From JAFGIT01 sp016929465 [NCBI: Candidatus Coatesbacteria bacterium] (lineage in GTDB: Bacteria > B130-G9): 9,646 nt of DNA. Shown here piece after piece: positions 397-9,453 of this stretch. Each line of letters opens with the position of its first letter. Within the stretch, counting starts at the first letter, position 1. The position numbers were made by a program, and so were the translations under genes. Location: NCBI GenBank assembly GCA_016929465.1, contig JAFGIT010000042.1:1-9646 (forward strand), read 5' to 3'. Below the pieces are notes generated by a model, which saw only the letters and a program-made list of their open reading frames with translations, had not been told where the DNA came from and made no database searches.

Positions 397-3300
397 GTGA
401 GAAGAATGAAGACTTATCTTGCCCTTCCCTGCCTCTTCTTTGGGCTTTGTGCCTTTGCCTGGGCCAATTCGAATGGTCATTCAGAAGGGGATGGCAGCGC
501 GTATATCCCCGGCACCGAGGGACGTATGCTGAGGGAATTCAAACTCCGAACGGAATTAGCCGAGTCCGCCGAAGCCTCGCTGTCGCTTGCGCCGGACTGG
601 CTCAGGATGGACCTGAGCGACATGTTCACTCGGCTACCGTCCGAAGACCAGGAGGCGTATGGACTGCTCCTACTATCGATCGCCGACCCGAGGCTTATCG
701 ACGAAGTGGCCTTCTCGATCGCGCATTCATCCGCCCGGATTCTCACGGAGACCGATCCACAGCTATACGCAAGGAACGCTGAGCTACTATACCAGATATC
801 GGAGGAGGTACCATACGCGGAGATAATCGACCAGGGAGAGCCCGGTGTCGATCCCGATTTCTATTCAACCGTCAGATATCAGACAAAAAGGGGCGGTGTG
901 ATGGGCCAATACGAGCTGCCGATGGACGTCTATTATTGGGAAGTTGCCCATCCCAGGCTGCCGGAGGAGATCCCTTCGATGAGCTCAGATGCCGCTGATG
1001 ACGATTTCGCGTGCGGGTACCTCTGGCGTGAGTACCTGTTCTACAACCCATCCGATGAATACGACTACAGCACAAACTTCATGGCCACGACACCAAATAG
1101 GATATACGACTCGGACGTGTCCGGCTGGGGTCGATCCGCAAGCGGCTACCTGTCGGATGGCGGCAGGACATGCCCCGACGGCATAGTTGCCGCCGGCCCC
1201 GCATGGGAGATGCCCACGCTGATCGAATATTCCCTTGGCTACTGCAGGGTCGTGGTGACTACGATGGAGCTGGAGCGAGCCCACGCAATGGGTAAGACGG
1301 AATTATTAGAGAATCTCATCATGCGGTCCGGTCCCTATGGCAACGATCTTCTCCTGCCCCCACACGATCCGAACGGAAGCTACGTCAACCCCGATCAGGT
1401 GGTCATACTCGACACGAGCGGCAACCAGGAGATGCTAGGGCCCATAACCTCAGTGCTGGATAGCCACGAAATCATTTACTGGGTGAACGCACCCGATGAC
1501 CTTTACGACGCCAGCTGGGACACAATCAGAAAGGTCATCATCCCCTCGCACCAGGATTGGGCCTTCTACGAATCGATCGCTGACAGCCAGTTCATGGACA
1601 AGTTCAACGTCTGGGCCGGGCGAGTGTCAGGAGTGCTGGAGTTCCATGGGGCATGCGACATCGGGGATTCTTGGTCAGGCCTTCAGCTCTTCGGATTGAG
1701 ATACAACCCGGAGCCCCTTGACGACCTATCGGTATTCGGTTACCCAGTCCTTGGGGATGTTATCGGTAACGCCGACTATTTCTGGGACGATACGGTGACC
1801 GGAGCGGTGCTTCCTGGCAACAGGCCCTTCGAATCAGGGGCGATGGCACTCGATGTGGTTACCAACTGGGTATCCAGAAACATGGCCTTTAAGAGGAAGG
1901 GCTCCCACTGGCTCACTCAGTCGAACGAGATCTGCTACGGCCATGGCGGTTACTGCGGGGAGATAGGGCACTTGCTGAACGCGGCGGCGAGGACTTGTCT
2001 GCTGCCCTCAGCGACGGTCTGCGACTACGTGTTCGACCACGTCTCGAACGAGTTCTGGGAGGGAGAATGGCGCGGCTATGAAGTCGGCTGGGAGGTGGGC
2101 AGCTCGATCATCGCAAGCCAGAATATGATTTCGAGCGACGCCTATGCGGTGGTTCACGAGCGAGCCGATATGTACTCGATCAATGCAACATCGAGATTCA
2201 CCCCGGTCTGCCGGTTCCACGCAACGGTCCAGGACCTCTTCGGGAACCCGGTCGATTGCGCTATGGTGCGTGTGTGGGTCCCCCTGGGTGGTAGTGACGG
2301 TGTGTTTGGGAATCCAATAGCGGATTATACCGATTCCAGGGGCGAGGCGGTCCTGGAACTGGGCGACAACCACGACTACTGGTTCGAGGTCAGGAGCGCA
2401 TCGGGCAACCTGGATAGGCAGAAGATACTTGCGAACACGCAGGCTGATATGGACTACATGCACACGTTCACGGTCGATGGCCCGCCTGTTCCGCAGATGC
2501 CGGCTATCGAGCCGATTGAATTCGCTTCGACCCCCGAGCCGGCATATCGGTTGAATGTCTCATTCGCCGCGGACTATGAGACGATATACAGCCTGAGCAG
2601 GATGACTTTTTCCATTAAGAAGGAGAGCAGCGCGAATATCGACTTCTTCGTCCTGAATGGCGAGAATTTCACCAAGTATAAAGCAGGGGAGCCATTCTCA
2701 GCGTATGAATGGCGGAATGACATCAAGGCAGATGAGTTCGAGGTCGAAATCCCAGACCAAGTCGCGTACTACCTCATCTTCTCGAATGAGGACACCCACT
2801 CCGCCAGGCAGTTTGTGACCATCAACCTGTCTGTGTCCGAGAATCAGGATGGTGCCTGGAATGTGATCGAGGATTTCGAGACATTCGAGGGGATACCCGC
2901 GGGCAAGGCATACATCATCACCCTCAACAACCGCACCGCCCCAAGCGTCTATGCGGCCGGCTTCTTCGAGGCCGAGGTCAATTCTGCAGGCGGCTTCGAA
3001 TTTGGCATTCAGGCGCTGGTGCTCGACCCGGACAGCGCGTGCGACATCGCCGAGGTTGAGCTGTGCTATGCCGGGATCCCGCTCGGAAAGGTTTTGACCG
3101 ACGATGGACTGTCCGGCGACGCGGTTGCCGGCGACGGGATTTTCACCCTCGCCGAGTCGTATCTGCCGGATATGATATCACCTGGAGTCTATCCTCTGGA
3201 GGTCGCGGTGTCCGACATCGCCGGCAATTCGGGCGTGCCCTGGCCCTATCTACGCGTTGGCTCAGTGCAGATTGCTCTTACAGCCGCAGCATCTCCTATG

Positions 3301-3663
3301 AATCCCAACGTCTATAAGCCCGTAGCGACCGCGGAGGGAGCACCCAGGATAATCGGCGGCGGTTTCTTTGGCGCAGACGCGATCGACCCGGGGGATGTCG
3401 TCCGCATCGTCGTATTCGTGGAGGACCCGGATGGTCTCTCCGACATCGACCGAGTGGAACTCTATCTTGAAGGCGGCATTCCGACAGGGCTTTCGCTCAA
3501 CGACGATGGCATCGATGGTGACGACCAAGCCGGAGATGCTCTTTTTACCTTCCAGACCGCCTTGCCAGAGGGTCTGCCGTCATCTGATATGACACTTGAA
3601 GTCGTCGCCTTCGACAAATCTGGAAATTCCAGCGCGAGGTATCCTTATTTCACCATCAGGTAA
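397..3663 (+). CDS. Secreted transglutaminase-like protein with C-terminal Ig-like repeats
   Basis: This is a 1088-aa exported protein. The GTG start at 397 is chosen because GGAG (387-390) sits 6 nt upstream; ATG 406 is the alternative. Residues 1-23 form a Sec signal peptide with probable cleavage after AWA; there is no lipobox. Residues 24 to about 480 match nothing I recognise. A transglutaminase-like core follows: GGYCGE with Cys520, then DHVSNEFW with His548, then GEWRGYEV, where Glu562 seems to take the place of the usual third catalytic Asp. This fold serves proteases, transglutaminases and peptide-binding proteins, so the reaction is not predictable. Residues about 605-672 look like a carboxypeptidase-regulatory-type sandwich and about 689-820 form another beta domain. 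Residues about 848-953 and 981-1088 are two Ig-like repeats with DDG...AGDG loops. The last one nearly duplicates the end of the preceding gene. There is no transmembrane anchor at the C terminus, so it is probably outer-surface or extracellular (inference). Confidence 0.9.
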   Translation: MRRMKTYLALPCLFFGLCAFAWANSNGHSEGDGSAYIPGTEGRMLREFKLRTELAESAEASLSLAPDWLRMDLSDMFTRLPSEDQEAYGLLLLSIADPRLIDEVAFSIAHSSARILTETDPQLYARNAELLYQISEEVPYAEIIDQGEPGVDPDFYSTVRYQTKRGGVMGQYELPMDVYYWEVAHPRLPEEIPSMSSDAADDDFACGYLWREYLFYNPSDEYDYSTNFMATTPNRIYDSDVSGWGRSASGYLSDGGRTCPDGIVAAGPAWEMPTLIEYSLGYCRVVVTTMELERAHAMGKTELLENLIMRSGPYGNDLLLPPHDPNGSYVNPDQVVILDTSGNQEMLGPITSVLDSHEIIYWVNAPDDLYDASWDTIRKVIIPSHQDWAFYESIADSQFMDKFNVWAGRVSGVLEFHGACDIGDSWSGLQLFGLRYNPEPLDDLSVFGYPVLGDVIGNADYFWDDTVTGAVLPGNRPFESGAMALDVVTNWVSRNMAFKRKGSHWLTQSNEICYGHGGYCGEIGHLLNAAARTCLLPSATVCDYVFDHVSNEFWEGEWRGYEVGWEVGSSIIASQNMISSDAYAVVHERADMYSINATSRFTPVCRFHATVQDLFGNPVDCAMVRVWVPLGGSDGVFGNPIADYTDSRGEAVLELGDNHDYWFEVRSASGNLDRQKILANTQADMDYMHTFTVDGPPVPQMPAIEPIEFASTPEPAYRLNVSFAADYETIYSLSRMTFSIKKESSANIDFFVLNGENFTKYKAGEPFSAYEWRNDIKADEFEVEIPDQVAYYLIFSNEDTHSARQFVTINLSVSENQDGAWNVIEDFETFEGIPAGKAYIITLNNRTAPSVYAAGFFEAEVNSAGGFEFGIQALVLDPDSACDIAEVELCYAGIPLGKVLTDDGLSGDAVAGDGIFTLAESYLPDMISPGVYPLEVAVSDIAGNSGVPWPYLRVGSVQIALTAAASPMNPNVYKPVATAEGAPRIIGGGFFGADAIDPGDVVRIVVFVEDPDGLSDIDRVELYLEGGIPTGLSLNDDGIDGDDQAGDALFTFQTALPEGLPSSDMTLEVVAFDKSGNSSARYPYFTIR

Positions 3664-3693
3664 TCGCGAAGTAGTCTTGGATGGTGCGGCTTA

Positions 3694-3795
3694 TATGGAG
3701 TGCGGTGGCTCGACGCCGCTTTTATTCGTCGCGGCTCGACGCGACAACGACCGCTATGATCAATTGTCTTGTGGGACAACATATCCGACAGGGAT
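3694..3795 (+). repeat. Hairpin repeat, direct copy 1
   Basis: The first 72 bp (3694-3765) are identical to 3831-3902. They hold two stem-loops with the same 6-nt loop GCTCGA. Hairpin A is GCGGTG (3702-3707) with CGCCGC (3714-3719), including one G-T wobble. Hairpin B is GTCGCG (3728-3733) with CGCGAC (3740-3745), a perfect match. After the identical core, similarity at the same 137-bp offset returns at 3780-3795 (13 of 16 bases), so the unit was probably larger and partly diverged. It starts 31 bp after a stop codon and resembles REP or other dispersed intergenic repeats. Confidence 0.85.
3702..3727 (+). terminator. Possible intrinsic terminator of the transglutaminase-like gene
   Basis: Hairpin A of repeat copy 1 (six pairs, GCTCGA loop) is followed directly by TTTTATT, a short T-rich run 39 bp after the stop of the 1088-aa gene. 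This is the layout of an intrinsic terminator, though the stem is short. The same structure recurs in copy 2 at 3839-3864. Confidence 0.35.
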
Positions 3796-3830
3796 GAGAG
3801 TAAATCCAGTCGTGTGCGGTGACTGGCCCG

Positions 3831-3932
3831 TATGGAGTGCGGTGGCTCGACGCCGCTTTTATTCGTCGCGGCTCGACGCGACAACGACCGCTATGATCAA
3901 TTTTCCCGACTTATGGCATATCTGAAGGGGAT
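3831..3932 (+). repeat. Hairpin repeat, direct copy 2
   Basis: This is the second direct copy, exactly 137 bp after the first. Bases 3831-3902 match copy 1 at all 72 positions. Hairpin A lies at 3839-3856 and hairpin B at 3865-3882. Bases 3917-3932 match copy 1 at 13 of 16 positions, while the 14 bases between (3903-3916) are mostly different. Perfect identity next to diverged flanks suggests recent duplication or conversion of the hairpin core. Short frames that run through the repeats are not treated as genes. Confidence 0.85.
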
Positions 3933-3971
3933 TGAAGCAGATTTATTAGATCGCTATCTCAAGCCACCTCA

Positions 3972-4002
3972 AATGAAGGCGACATCGAGCTGTCGCACCC
4001 CA
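3972..4002 (-). repeat. Hairpin repeat, inverted diverged copy
   Basis: The reverse complement of this 31-base stretch aligns without gaps to 3696-3726. It matches at 23 of 31 positions and all eight differences are transitions. The stem-loop is GCGACA (3979-3984), loop TCGAGC (the complement of GCTCGA), TGTCGC (3991-3996), with six perfect pairs. Two stem pairs change from G-C to A-T on both sides, and the one wobble pair of the direct copies becomes a Watson-Crick pair. It closes the repeat block in the opposite direction. Confidence 0.7.
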
Positions 4003-4041
4003 AACGCGGCCATCATCAGAAGGTAGTGGGGTCAGGATCCT

Positions 4042-4139: not shown

Positions 4140-6167
4140 ATGAGCATAAGGAACTATCTCCTCATAGCAGTGTCGTTCTTCGTAATTCTCAGCACGGTGG
4201 CCGTTGCTGCGCCGTCGATATCGATATTCACGGACAAGACTGATTACGTCGGGGGCGAGGTGATCGAGGTGAGTCTCGCCGCTGAGAATTACGAGGAAAC
4301 GCTCGTCGTTGACGTCTATATCGGCCTGATAATGCCCTGGGGCAGCATCTACACCTATGCGAATGATTCCTGGCAGTATGCGCTGGTCCCGTGGATCCCG
4401 AGCATCGAATTTCCCAGCCAATTCGTCTTGGACGAGACGCCCTTCTTCTGGTTCGATGTGCCCTACGGAGTTGACGCGGATTTTGACTTTGCGGCCGCGC
4501 TAACCGTCCTCGGCACGCTCGATTTCGTGTCGGAGATAAGCTACGCCCACTTCAGCATTGGCCCGGGAACAATCTCGGATTACTACGTTGATGCGGAAAG
4601 CGGAGCCGACGCAAACGATGGCTCCGAGGAGAAGCCCTGGCGAACGATCACGCACGCGCTCGCCTTGATAGAGGGTTCGGAGGAGAATCCGCTCACGGTT
4701 CACATTCTTGAGGGGACCTATTCTGCGGGCACGAATGGCGAGCAGTTCCCGCTCAACATGAAGAGCTGGGTCTCGCTTTCGGGAGTGAATCGAGAGACCA
4801 CGATTCTCGATGCGGAGCATCAGGCGAACCACATCATCTATTGCAGCGGGGCGACCGACCTGACCATCGAGGGTATGACACTCAAGCGAGGAAAAGCCGA
4901 TGGAGAGGGCGGCCTCGATGTCATCGGCGGCGGGATTCTGTGCGCCCACGGCTCATCCCCCGTTATCCGCAACAACATTATCACGGAATGCGAGGCAGAA
5001 TCTGGTGGCGGGATCTACTCGACCGACAGCGCGCCGGAGATCGATGGGAACTCCATCCATGGCTGCTCAACGTCTGCAAGCGGCGGTGCAATCACACTCT
5101 ACCTGCGGTCCGCATCGGTCACGAATAACACAATTTCGGACAACACAGCCGGTTGGTCTGGAGGTGCGGTCATTTGTTTCGATTGCGACGTCTTGATTGA
5201 GGGCAATTACATACTGGACAACAATTCGCTTGGCGAAGAGGCAGCCGGGGGGGCTGTTGTTTGTGAAGACTGCTCCGCGACCATCTACAACAACGGCATC
5301 TCGGGGAATACATCTGCGTGCGAAGGCGGCGGAATTCTCTTGAGCGGTTTCGAGCCGTTCGTGGTGGAAGACAACAATATCGCCGAGAACTCGTGCGACG
5401 GTCGTGGCGGGGGTGTCTGCCTTTCGGGATGCGTGGACGCGGTTGTGGAGAACAATGACATAAGTGGCAACACGGCTGTCGATCTTGGTGGCGGCATTTT
5501 TTGCTGGGGCACAGATTCATTCACGCTCTTGAATAACGCCCTATCTGCAAACAGCACGGATGCATCAGGCGGGGGCGTTATGCTGTGGGGGGTCACGGGG
5601 GAAGTGACGATTGAGGATAACCTGATCACCTCTGGCACCGCTGCCATAAACGGTGGCGGGTTATTCCTGCTGGAGACTTCGGGCGGCATTCTGAATAATA
5701 CCATTACGGAGAACACATCGGGCGGCGATGGCGGCGGGATAGCCTGCCACAGCTCGTCACCCGAGATATATGACAACGACATATCGAATAACGTCTCAAA
5801 CGCGGACGCTGGTAGCGGCGGCGGAGCAATTGCCCTGAACGACAGCAATTCAGAGGTCCATTACAATACAATCGCGGACAATTGGTGTGCGAACTGCGGC
5901 GGGGGAATACAAATATGCTGCGACAGCACGGCGGCCATCTACGAGAATGAGTTCTTGCGGAACCACGCCGAATTCATGGGCGGCGGGATCGCCTGCTATG
6001 GGGCATCTCCGACGATTGAGGATAATGCCTTCACGGAAAACACAGCCGGCTGGAACGGTGGCGCGGTCTATGTATCGCGTGACAGTAACGCGACGATTGA
6101 GGGCAACACCATGAGTAATAACTCCGCCTTAGAGGGCGGCGACGATATATTCCACGAGGGCGATTGA
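4140..6167 (+). CDS. Secreted right-handed parallel beta-helix protein
   Basis: This is a 675-aa exported protein. The ATG at 4140 has GGGAG (4128-4132) 7 nt upstream. Residues 1 to about 24 are a Sec signal peptide (LLIAVSFFVILSTVAVAA). Residues about 25-145 form a beta-rich domain starting ISIFTDKTDYVGGEVIEV, like an Ig-type macroglobulin strand. From Tyr148, YYVDAESGADANDGSEEKPW and the following TITHAL are typical of DUF1565, the cap of many beta-helix proteins. From residue 263 to the end there are 15 coils of 25-29 residues plus a partial one. Each coil begins GGGI/GGAV and carries an N-x-I/N-T-I-S-x-N turn. Such helices bind or cleave polysaccharides or serve as adhesins. No catalytic residues can be assigned here, so no enzyme activity is claimed. 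Cysteines cluster between coils (CFDC, CEDC, CANC, ICC). No anchor or sorting domain is visible, and the shared Ig-like tail of its neighbours is absent. Confidence 0.9.
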   Translation: MSIRNYLLIAVSFFVILSTVAVAAPSISIFTDKTDYVGGEVIEVSLAAENYEETLVVDVYIGLIMPWGSIYTYANDSWQYALVPWIPSIEFPSQFVLDETPFFWFDVPYGVDADFDFAAALTVLGTLDFVSEISYAHFSIGPGTISDYYVDAESGADANDGSEEKPWRTITHALALIEGSEENPLTVHILEGTYSAGTNGEQFPLNMKSWVSLSGVNRETTILDAEHQANHIIYCSGATDLTIEGMTLKRGKADGEGGLDVIGGGILCAHGSSPVIRNNIITECEAESGGGIYSTDSAPEIDGNSIHGCSTSASGGAITLYLRSASVTNNTISDNTAGWSGGAVICFDCDVLIEGNYILDNNSLGEEAAGGAVVCEDCSATIYNNGISGNTSACEGGGILLSGFEPFVVEDNNIAENSCDGRGGGVCLSGCVDAVVENNDISGNTAVDLGGGIFCWGTDSFTLLNNALSANSTDASGGGVMLWGVTGEVTIEDNLITSGTAAINGGGLFLLETSGGILNNTITENTSGGDGGGIACHSSSPEIYDNDISNNVSNADAGSGGGAIALNDSNSEVHYNTIADNWCANCGGGIQICCDSTAAIYENEFLRNHAEFMGGGIACYGASPTIEDNAFTENTAGWNGGAVYVSRDSNATIEGNTMSNNSALEGGDDIFHEGD

Positions 6168-6268: not shown

Positions 6269-6345
<77 letters not shown>

Positions 6346-8802: not shown

Positions 8803-9414
8803 TTATGCTTTGATCTTATGGATGAACTCCTTGTCAATCACCACTCTCTCATCACAAGCCTCAAGCAGCTCTCTGTTGAAAGGTAGTTCGGTCGAGTAAT
8901 AGAGTTCGACAATCGTGCCCGAGTCTTTAGCCACTTGGATGGCCGGGATGAAATCGCTGTCCGCTATAACGATAACAGATCTCTGAATGAGGCCCGCCAC
9001 ACTTAGCCTGGTGAGGTCCAGCGTCAGCAGTATGTCAACGTTCTTTTGGGTGAATTTGGGCCCTGTTGCAGTATCGATCCTAGCCAAGCGCCCCAACCTC
9101 ACCTGGAAGCGAGGTAGATTCTCGAGTGCTTTTCTGAAGTTATCAAAGCCCCGCTGGCGATTCTTGTCGTCTGCGGAAGGTGATGCAGGCACGAATGGAG
9201 GACAGTCGTAATAGTATGTTCGCAGACGTTCGTAGCCGCGGGAGACTTCATTCGAAAACTTGAGGTAGCAGATCTTGGGTGAGTTGAACTCTTGGAGCAG
9301 CTTCTTTGCGTAACCGCCATCAATGAAGACCGAGTATCTAAGCAAAAATGTCCTCGGACCTGTAAAAAAAGCAACCAGCGACCGGCGCACGGGGCGCCGA
9401 TCACTGGGGCGCAT
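8803..9414 (-). CDS. NYN-domain (LabA/DUF88-type) putative ribonuclease
   Basis: The product has 203 aa from ATG 9414, which has GAGAGG (9428-9423) 8 nt upstream. NYN domains are PIN-like metal-dependent RNases. The acidic residues expected for this fold are visible: Asp32 in SVFIDGGYAKKLL, Asp127 and Asp133 in QKNVDILLTLDL, and Asp152/Asp154 in IADSDFIPAIQVAK. The YYYDCPPF segment and the F-x-V-x-LG-x-L strand also fit. The end, CDERVVIDKEFI, is typical. The 22 or so residues before the first beta strand are Arg-rich and unusual. A start at TTG 9345, with AGGA 5 nt upstream, would remove them and give a family-like beginning (MLRYSVFIDGG, 180 aa). An in-frame TTG at 9420 is also possible. 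The RNA target is unknown and no toxin or antitoxin partner is visible. Confidence 0.88.
   Translation of the reverse strand: MRPSDRRPVRRSLVAFFTGPRTFLLRYSVFIDGGYAKKLLQEFNSPKICYLKFSNEVSRGYERLRTYYYDCPPFVPASPSADDKNRQRGFDNFRKALENLPRFQVRLGRLARIDTATGPKFTQKNVDILLTLDLTRLSVAGLIQRSVIVIADSDFIPAIQVAKDSGTIVELYYSTELPFNRELLEACDERVVIDKEFIHKIKA
9364..9402 (-). promoter_or_regulatory. GC-rich hairpin plus T-run near the NYN gene start
   Basis: Bases 9380-9388 and 9394-9402 pair over 9 positions, including one G-T wobble, around a 5-nt loop. On the minus strand seven T residues (9370-9364) follow after a 9-nt gap. The gap is long for an intrinsic terminator, but the position between ATG 9414 and TTG 9345 would suit an attenuator or a translation-control stem if TTG 9345 is used. 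Confidence 0.35.
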
Positions 9415-9453
9415 TTTCAATGCCTCTCAGAAGCACATCCAAAAGGCATGGGC

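Follow-up and report, generated by a model that had tools for sequence, protein, structure and literature searches.

Dispersed GGAG-tagged hairpins of a Candidatus Coatesbacteria genome form REPIN-like pairs and adjoin one RAYT clade in other genomes

The locus and its duplicated hairpins

The window, meaning the whole stretch of 9,646 nucleotides analysed here, carries two frames (41-316 and 397-3663) with almost the same C-terminal stretch (..RYPYFTI), a gene for a right-handed beta-helix protein (Beta_helix, NosD, DUF1565; 4140-6167), a tRNA gene recognised by Rfam (6269-6342, plus strand) and, on the minus strand, a gene for a NYN-domain protein (8803-9420). The repeats described in this work lie behind the frame ending at 3663. 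An open frame of 109 amino acids (3596-3925, ..MECGGSTPL..) runs through both repeat copies and is likely spurious.

The direct repeat is composed of two 72-base copies on the plus strand, 3694-3765 (a hairpin unit and the start of an internal region) and 3831-3902, which are identical at 72/72 positions and offset by 137 bases, start to start. The initial annotation had reported this duplication and, within each copy, two different 6-bp stems around the same GCTCGA loop, and re-examination bears it out on both counts. It had also pointed to weak similarity further out, which is present at 3780-3795 against 3917-3932 (13/16), and to mostly different bases right after the core, where 4/14 of the intervening positions are equal. 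The bases bordering the copies are unequal (A/G before, G/T after), and a gapped alignment downstream of the 72 bases scored 7.0, no better than shuffled sequences (mean 4.5, maximum 11), so that the flanking similarity is indeed weak. A BLAST search of its own genome with the 72-mer gave 28 matches at E<=10; at a threshold of E<=1e-5, 16 remain, which include both window copies and lie on 15 contigs. The closest other copy detected in the genome reaches no more than 90% identity (69 bases), and for this reason the 72 shared bases are most likely the product of a recent duplication or conversion at the site.

Copy 1 contains a GGAG tag (3697-3700, placed by alignment A1), hairpin 1 (3702-3719, GCGGTG-GCTCGA-CGCCGC) followed by TTTT, and hairpin 2 (3728-3745, GTCGCG-GCTCGA-CGCGAC), all on the plus strand. 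The corresponding features of copy 2, also on the plus strand, are found at 3834-3837, 3839-3856 and 3865-3882. Beyond what was annotated initially, a third GCTCGA hairpin is present on the minus strand (3979-3996) and represents the inverted end of a whole element. It belongs to a right-hand inverted unit (3950-4005, minus strand) composed of a GGGG tag (4001-3998), hairpin 1 (3996-3979, stem GCGACA/TGTCGC) and a hairpin 2 with a partly broken stem (3970-3953). This unit was matched by covariance model R1 with 54 bits (E 6e-10), a score that is not independent because the unit is one of the rows of A1. REPIN is the term for an inverted pair of REPs, and the units at 3830-3885 and 3950-4005 delimit an element of this layout of 168 bases with four hairpins (3834-4001, no strand assigned). 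In front of it lies a truncated element (approximately 3697-3833, plus strand) that consists of a left unit and a portion of the internal region; it continues into copy 2 and has no recognisable right unit. An HMM built on seven elements of relatives (six from genome G003 and one from G002) matched the whole window element as 4004-3828 with E 6.6e-27 and covered 3693-3803 of the truncated one.

A dispersed family of tagged, covarying hairpins

Model R1 was built from A1, an alignment of 30 units of the window's own genome. Of 31 source rows kept, L035, the second identical window copy and an overlapping L022 row were dropped, and the window unit at 3950-4005 and L025 3125-3180 were added by eye. 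In the own genome the unit consists of the GGAG tag and a single T, then a first 6-bp hairpin, TTT with about five further bases, and another 6-bp hairpin of the same orientation. R1 finds at least 61 matches in the own genome at E<=1 and at least 52 at E<=1e-5, the 30 units used for the model being among those matched; the 61 are a lower bound, since 150 of 1275 candidates were scored. In a search of 60 genomes (the own and 59 others) matches at E<=0.01 were present in six and absent from 54. The own genome had 57 in that search, G042 had 29 and G053 four, and the relatives of the same family had at least 47 (G001), at least 59 (G002) and at least 94 (G003), with 94 candidates scored in each of the three. 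A pattern scan of genome contigs, which perhaps did not include the own genome, gave 64 stretches, some of them in MAGs of the PVC group, in a Pyrinomonadaceae MAG and in MAGs of uncultured bacteria.

Units of the own genome lay wholly outside open reading frames of at least 120 amino acids in 45/53 cases and inside in 8/53, while 21% of random 56-base places fell outside such frames; the first 53 of 58 non-duplicate matches were taken, and the frames are plain ORFs, not curated genes. The GGAG hairpins are thus a dispersed, mostly intergenic family. Further intergenic copies had been proposed initially as support for a REP-like family, and their lack as a sign of a single local duplication; copies are numerous in the own genome and number dozens in each of the three relatives.

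The stems covary. In A1, 7/12 base pairs change on both sides with a covariation score of 0.366 against 0.167 in shuffles, and 95.7% of the cells are paired; shuffled data give 84.9%, and sliding the partner gives no more than 69.5%. Beside RAYT genes of other genomes, in an alignment fitted to the model, 11/12 pairs change on both sides (0.334 against 0.080). Both window hairpins fold alone as single-stranded DNA, with z values of -0.6 and -2.0, and the folding energy of the site does not exceed shuffles as DNA and is weak as RNA (z -1.8). As these single-strand energies are not unusual, the case for the hairpins rests on covariation and not on energy.

The tag is not the canonical REP foot GT[AG]G; the letters at its place are GGAG in 38/60 matches of alignment A2 (GGAC in 11), 99/107 of A3 and 54/64 of A5. 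A2 covers the own genome and includes two duplicate L094 rows among its 60, A5 covers matches beside RAYT genes, and in A3 and A5 some hairpins are also read in reverse. Hairpin 1 is followed by GCTTT, GCTCT or GCCTT in 29/30 (A1), 54/60 (A2), 86/107 (A3) and 55/64 (A5) rows. The loop is another matter. In 58 own-genome rows the loop columns of hairpin 1 read AGCTCT 17 times, GCTTGA 10, GCTCGA 6 and CGCTCG 5, besides others, and the AGCTCT letters could pair further inside the hairpin. Beside RAYT genes the loops vary widely and GGAG, the base of the stem and TTT are mostly kept. The GCTCGA loop is therefore constant only locally, and the earlier idea that a constant loop points to its recognition has to be given up as far as the main signal is concerned; some contact of the transposase with the loop is possible. 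A second type of hairpin 1, with GAGCTCTC in the loop region and an often mismatched stem (L077-L096), occurs in the own genome about as often as the GCTTGA type.

Inverted pairs of units were listed by hand from the model matches. There are 46, seven of them in the own genome, with lengths of 126-233 bases, mostly 165-173, and with units about 120 bases apart from start to start. Two GGAG units facing each other thus make up a REPIN-like structure that measures about 166-173 bases.

Association with a RAYT clade

Y1 transposase genes were scanned with R1 at 62 loci of 13 genomes (3/3 places in the own genome, and 29/29 and 30/40 places from two further searches). Units at E<=1e-4 were present at three (L213, L214 and L224), whose proteins form one clade with an HYH motif, the other two being 94% and 51% identical to the L213 protein; the other 59 Y1 loci had no GGAG unit at E<=0.01 (best E 0.03). 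A search of the 13 genomes with the L213 protein found full-length relatives in G061, G063, G066 and G002, and at all four loci units at E<=0.01 lie within about 1.5 kb. Clade fragments in G063 and G066 also adjoin units. The gene of G002, a relative of the same family as the own genome, is 49% identical, has one in-frame stop and adjoins an inverted unit pair in which the right unit is hairpin 1 alone. Of the 145 genomes searched in the phylum to which G061 belongs, 15 carried the clade at E<=1e-20, and 18/19 further clade loci had matches at E<=0.01 over the same distance of about 1.5 kb, those at L283, L291 and L298 being weaker than 1e-4; the exception is L297 (33% identity). Altogether, the hairpins adjoin the gene in 22/23 loci of this clade in other genomes. 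In another 23 loci of weaker similarity to the RAYT a unit was seen only at L242, near a match on contig C92 of G001 (29% over 71 residues, E 0.01) which was judged a chance protein match because it has no HYH motif.

The same association is seen at the level of genomes. Taking both searches as covering the same 145 genomes, from their shared handles, 13 had both clade and units, two the RAYT only, 11 units only and 119 neither, the thresholds being E<=1e-5 for units, of which 39 candidates were scored in each genome, and E<=1e-20 for the clade. The Fisher p value of 1.9e-10 (13/15 against 11/130 genomes) is uncorrected for kinship and is too small, since the genomes are related. In the two RAYT-only genomes (G089 and G146) weaker units do adjoin the gene, and 11/24 genomes with units have no clade RAYT at E<=1e-20. 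Beside RAYT genes the pairs of hairpin 2 have letters in 21-37 of 60 rows; as hairpin 2 is often absent there, the tandem hairpin pair is not a constant feature of the RAYT-linked family. Two clade proteins were scored on NCBIfam REP_Tyr_transpos (NF047646), where that of G061 reaches 83.5 bits, above the cut-off of 80, and that of G066 is just under it with 79.1; on Pfam Y1_Tnp the G061 protein scores 22.9 bits against a cut-off of 23.

Clade members were not found in the own genome (G000), G001 or G003, where the best scores were 17, 17 and 23 bits; genome completeness is 86% for the own genome and 83% for G003. The own genome has three Y1 genes, whose proteins are 18-22% identical to the L213 protein. 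They were considered as mobilisers and rejected, because each adjoins other hairpins, as judged by eye, and none has a unit at E<=0.01. The three (L033, L032 and L031, on contigs C3, C388 and C195) each have a hairpin family of their own (GTAGGGGCGG-like, GGCATGGGCTTCCAGCCCATG, GTAGCCGTAGGC). Of the loci scanned for these genes, L011 has one partial unit match (E 0.57). The family looks old in the own genome, which may be without a working RAYT. The initial suggestion of a REP-like family moved by a RAYT thus stands for the family, by its many copies and by the count of 22/23 clade loci against 0/59 other Y1 loci, and lacks a matching RAYT in the own genome.

Interpretation and comparison with known systems

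We consider it probable, and with good confidence, that the repeats of the window are REP-type hairpins of a GGAG-tagged, RAYT-linked family, the movement of its elements included. In the available part of PMC8266576, TnpAREP is described to recognise GTAG and to cut at a CT near the hairpin; a guide model pairs A3 and G4 of the tag with this CT, and contacts with the loop are important in some systems. By analogy with this enzyme, the RAYT would bind the single-stranded tagged hairpin, reading tag and stem, and would cut at a nearby CT, by which elements could be copied or moved. The CT in the GCTTT, GCTCT or GCCTT following hairpin 1 is the candidate cut site. GGAG keeps A3 and G4 of GTAG and is changed at position 2. 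The window holds a whole element (3834-4001) behind a truncated one (3697-3833), their identity over 72 bases having presumably come from local duplication or conversion.

In the relatives, the GGAG element is also found inside an element of about 319 bp with terminal inverted repeats. In G003 it is enclosed by two arms of 115 and 38 bases with CCCAATAATCAGATTRA ends, and seven copies with both ends, six from G003 and one (C213) from the own genome with 319 bases, measure 318-319 bases between the ends. Long arms number at least 40 in G003 (40 of 77 candidates scored), five in G002 and one in G001. Flush duplications of at least 5 bp border 9/25 of the elements bounded by such repeats with both flanks in the loci (mean 0.49, maximum 3 in 500 permutations). 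They are seen in 4/13 elements with GGAG cargo, one of the 13 being from the window's genome (0.07 expected, maximum 2 in 2000), in 5/10 with GTAG cargo (0.04 expected) and in 0/2 with other cargo. As the spreading unit in G003 seems to be this larger element, recent movement in that genome could have occurred without a RAYT. From these arms, lengths and duplications it could be argued that a DDE-type MITE with CCCAATAATCAGATTGA terminal repeats and a target duplication of 5-6 bp now carries the GGAG element as no more than a passenger. We regard this as rather unlikely, since 9/13 GGAG-cargo elements have no such duplication and BLAST with the G003 arm gave no match in the own genome. The element HMM aligns there over both arms only in C213, L028 and L087 extend to the end of the short arm, and the alignment of the window copy ends where the arms would begin, with no arm recognisable and no target duplication seen. 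Moreover, elements without recognisable arms exist (L104 and L117), GGAG hairpins flank RAYT genes elsewhere, and a search for the terminal repeat pattern did not find a transposase with CCCAATAATCAGATTGA ends. A related proposal, which we make tentatively and hold to be possible but short of probable, is that REPINs are interchangeable cargo of a second transposon: as in this bacterial family the same CCCAATAATCAGATTGA ends enclose either a GGAG-REPIN or a GTAG-REPIN, a single-strand (HUH) repeat and a double-strand (DDE-type) element would be joined in one unit able to use either engine.

Several other elements with terminal repeats were recorded. Ten of about 300-324 bases in G001 (L122:485-808 and L269-L277) have the same CCCCAATAATCAGATTGA ends and a GTAG-tagged REPIN as cargo, the hairpins of which look by eye like the ones flanking the L049 Y1 gene. 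A 179-base element in L278 (G001, C86) has the arms and a single minimal central palindrome replacing the four hairpins. Eight contigs of the own genome (C13, C123, C177, C201, C290, C304, C362 and C404; L261-L268) begin inside one multi-copy element ending in ..CCGTCAATCTGATTATTGGGG, perhaps a full transposon which breaks the assembly. Outward TTGAC within 30 bases outside the terminal repeats is present in 12/50 flanks, compared with 4/50 for inward TTGAC, and these elements may lie immediately upstream of promoters.

Tandem transcription terminators behind the gene ending at 3663 would account for the position of copy 1, which starts 33 bases behind the stop codon, and for the terminator-like score of hairpin 1 with its TTTT; five such sites occur in 751 bases against 0.4 in shuffles, made of three distinct hairpins of which two are identical copies. 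We think this improbable, because it explains neither the GGAG tag nor the RAYT link nor the pairing of inverted units at an almost constant distance, and hairpin 2 has no T run; the hairpins may end transcripts as a side effect. A structured RNA, or an RNA site where a protein recognises the loop, is very improbable: covarying stems would look alike in RNA and both hairpins are present in the RNA fold of the site, but the loop is not constant, the link to a transposase is there, and no Rfam family matches at the site, Rfam finding in the window only the tRNA and one sub-threshold match overlapping it. That nothing but a local duplication, without any family, is involved is almost certainly wrong in view of the at least 61 model matches in the own genome and the many in relatives, even though each copy has the other as its nearest match among the genomic places detected, and local duplication is likely for the 72 identical bases alone.

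With REP-type hairpins of a RAYT-linked family as the preferred reading, the GGAG family and its own RAYT clade would offer a natural test of the co-evolution of tag and enzyme, and the nested element of the relatives would show repeats outliving the loss of their own transposase. A literature search, with subscription papers outside its coverage, returned no report of a GGAG-tagged REP/RAYT family, and queries for GGAGTGCGG palindromes, for the 12-letter core and its complement and for ECGGLTPL returned unrelated papers only.

The family resembles the REP/REPIN and RAYT/TnpAREP systems of E. coli, Pseudomonas and Stenotrophomonas in its short tagged hairpins, mostly intergenic and in inverted pairs, and in adjoining a Y1 transposase of NCBIfam REP_Tyr_transpos. 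Published REPs, as far as the sources available go, mostly have GTAG or GTGG as their tag, to which a role in guiding the cut is ascribed. The present family differs in having GGAG one base from the stem in place of GT[AG]G and, within this bacterial family, two tandem hairpins per end and four per element, with a spacer of about 64 bases that is conserved in part. With the GTAG- and CGTC-tagged palindromes of PMC3733652, which in its available text include GTAG families of the PVC superphylum, it shares a tag at one end of the palindrome, but the tag is neither of the two, and the letters GGAG are absent from the main text of that paper. Compared by motifs and not by tree, the transposase clade is close to TnpA_Y1 subclass 2.8 as given in Table 1 of PMC6006769 in its HYH motif (NHYH) and its Y[VI]HxNP-like tyrosine motif; in place of the W[YH] given there, the clade proteins aligned or translated have WF, and L288, read by eye, has WH. 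The available text of PMC6006769 places subclass 2.8 in Cyanobacteria, with long GT[AG]G REPs and relatives in other phyla. It also describes class 3 TnpA_Y1 of Planctomycetes and Acidobacteria, which, like the present clade, are flanked by atypical structures, there possibly in high copy, but which have a CnGA foot and a Y----Q motif, in distinction to the GGAG tag and YVHxNP motif found here.
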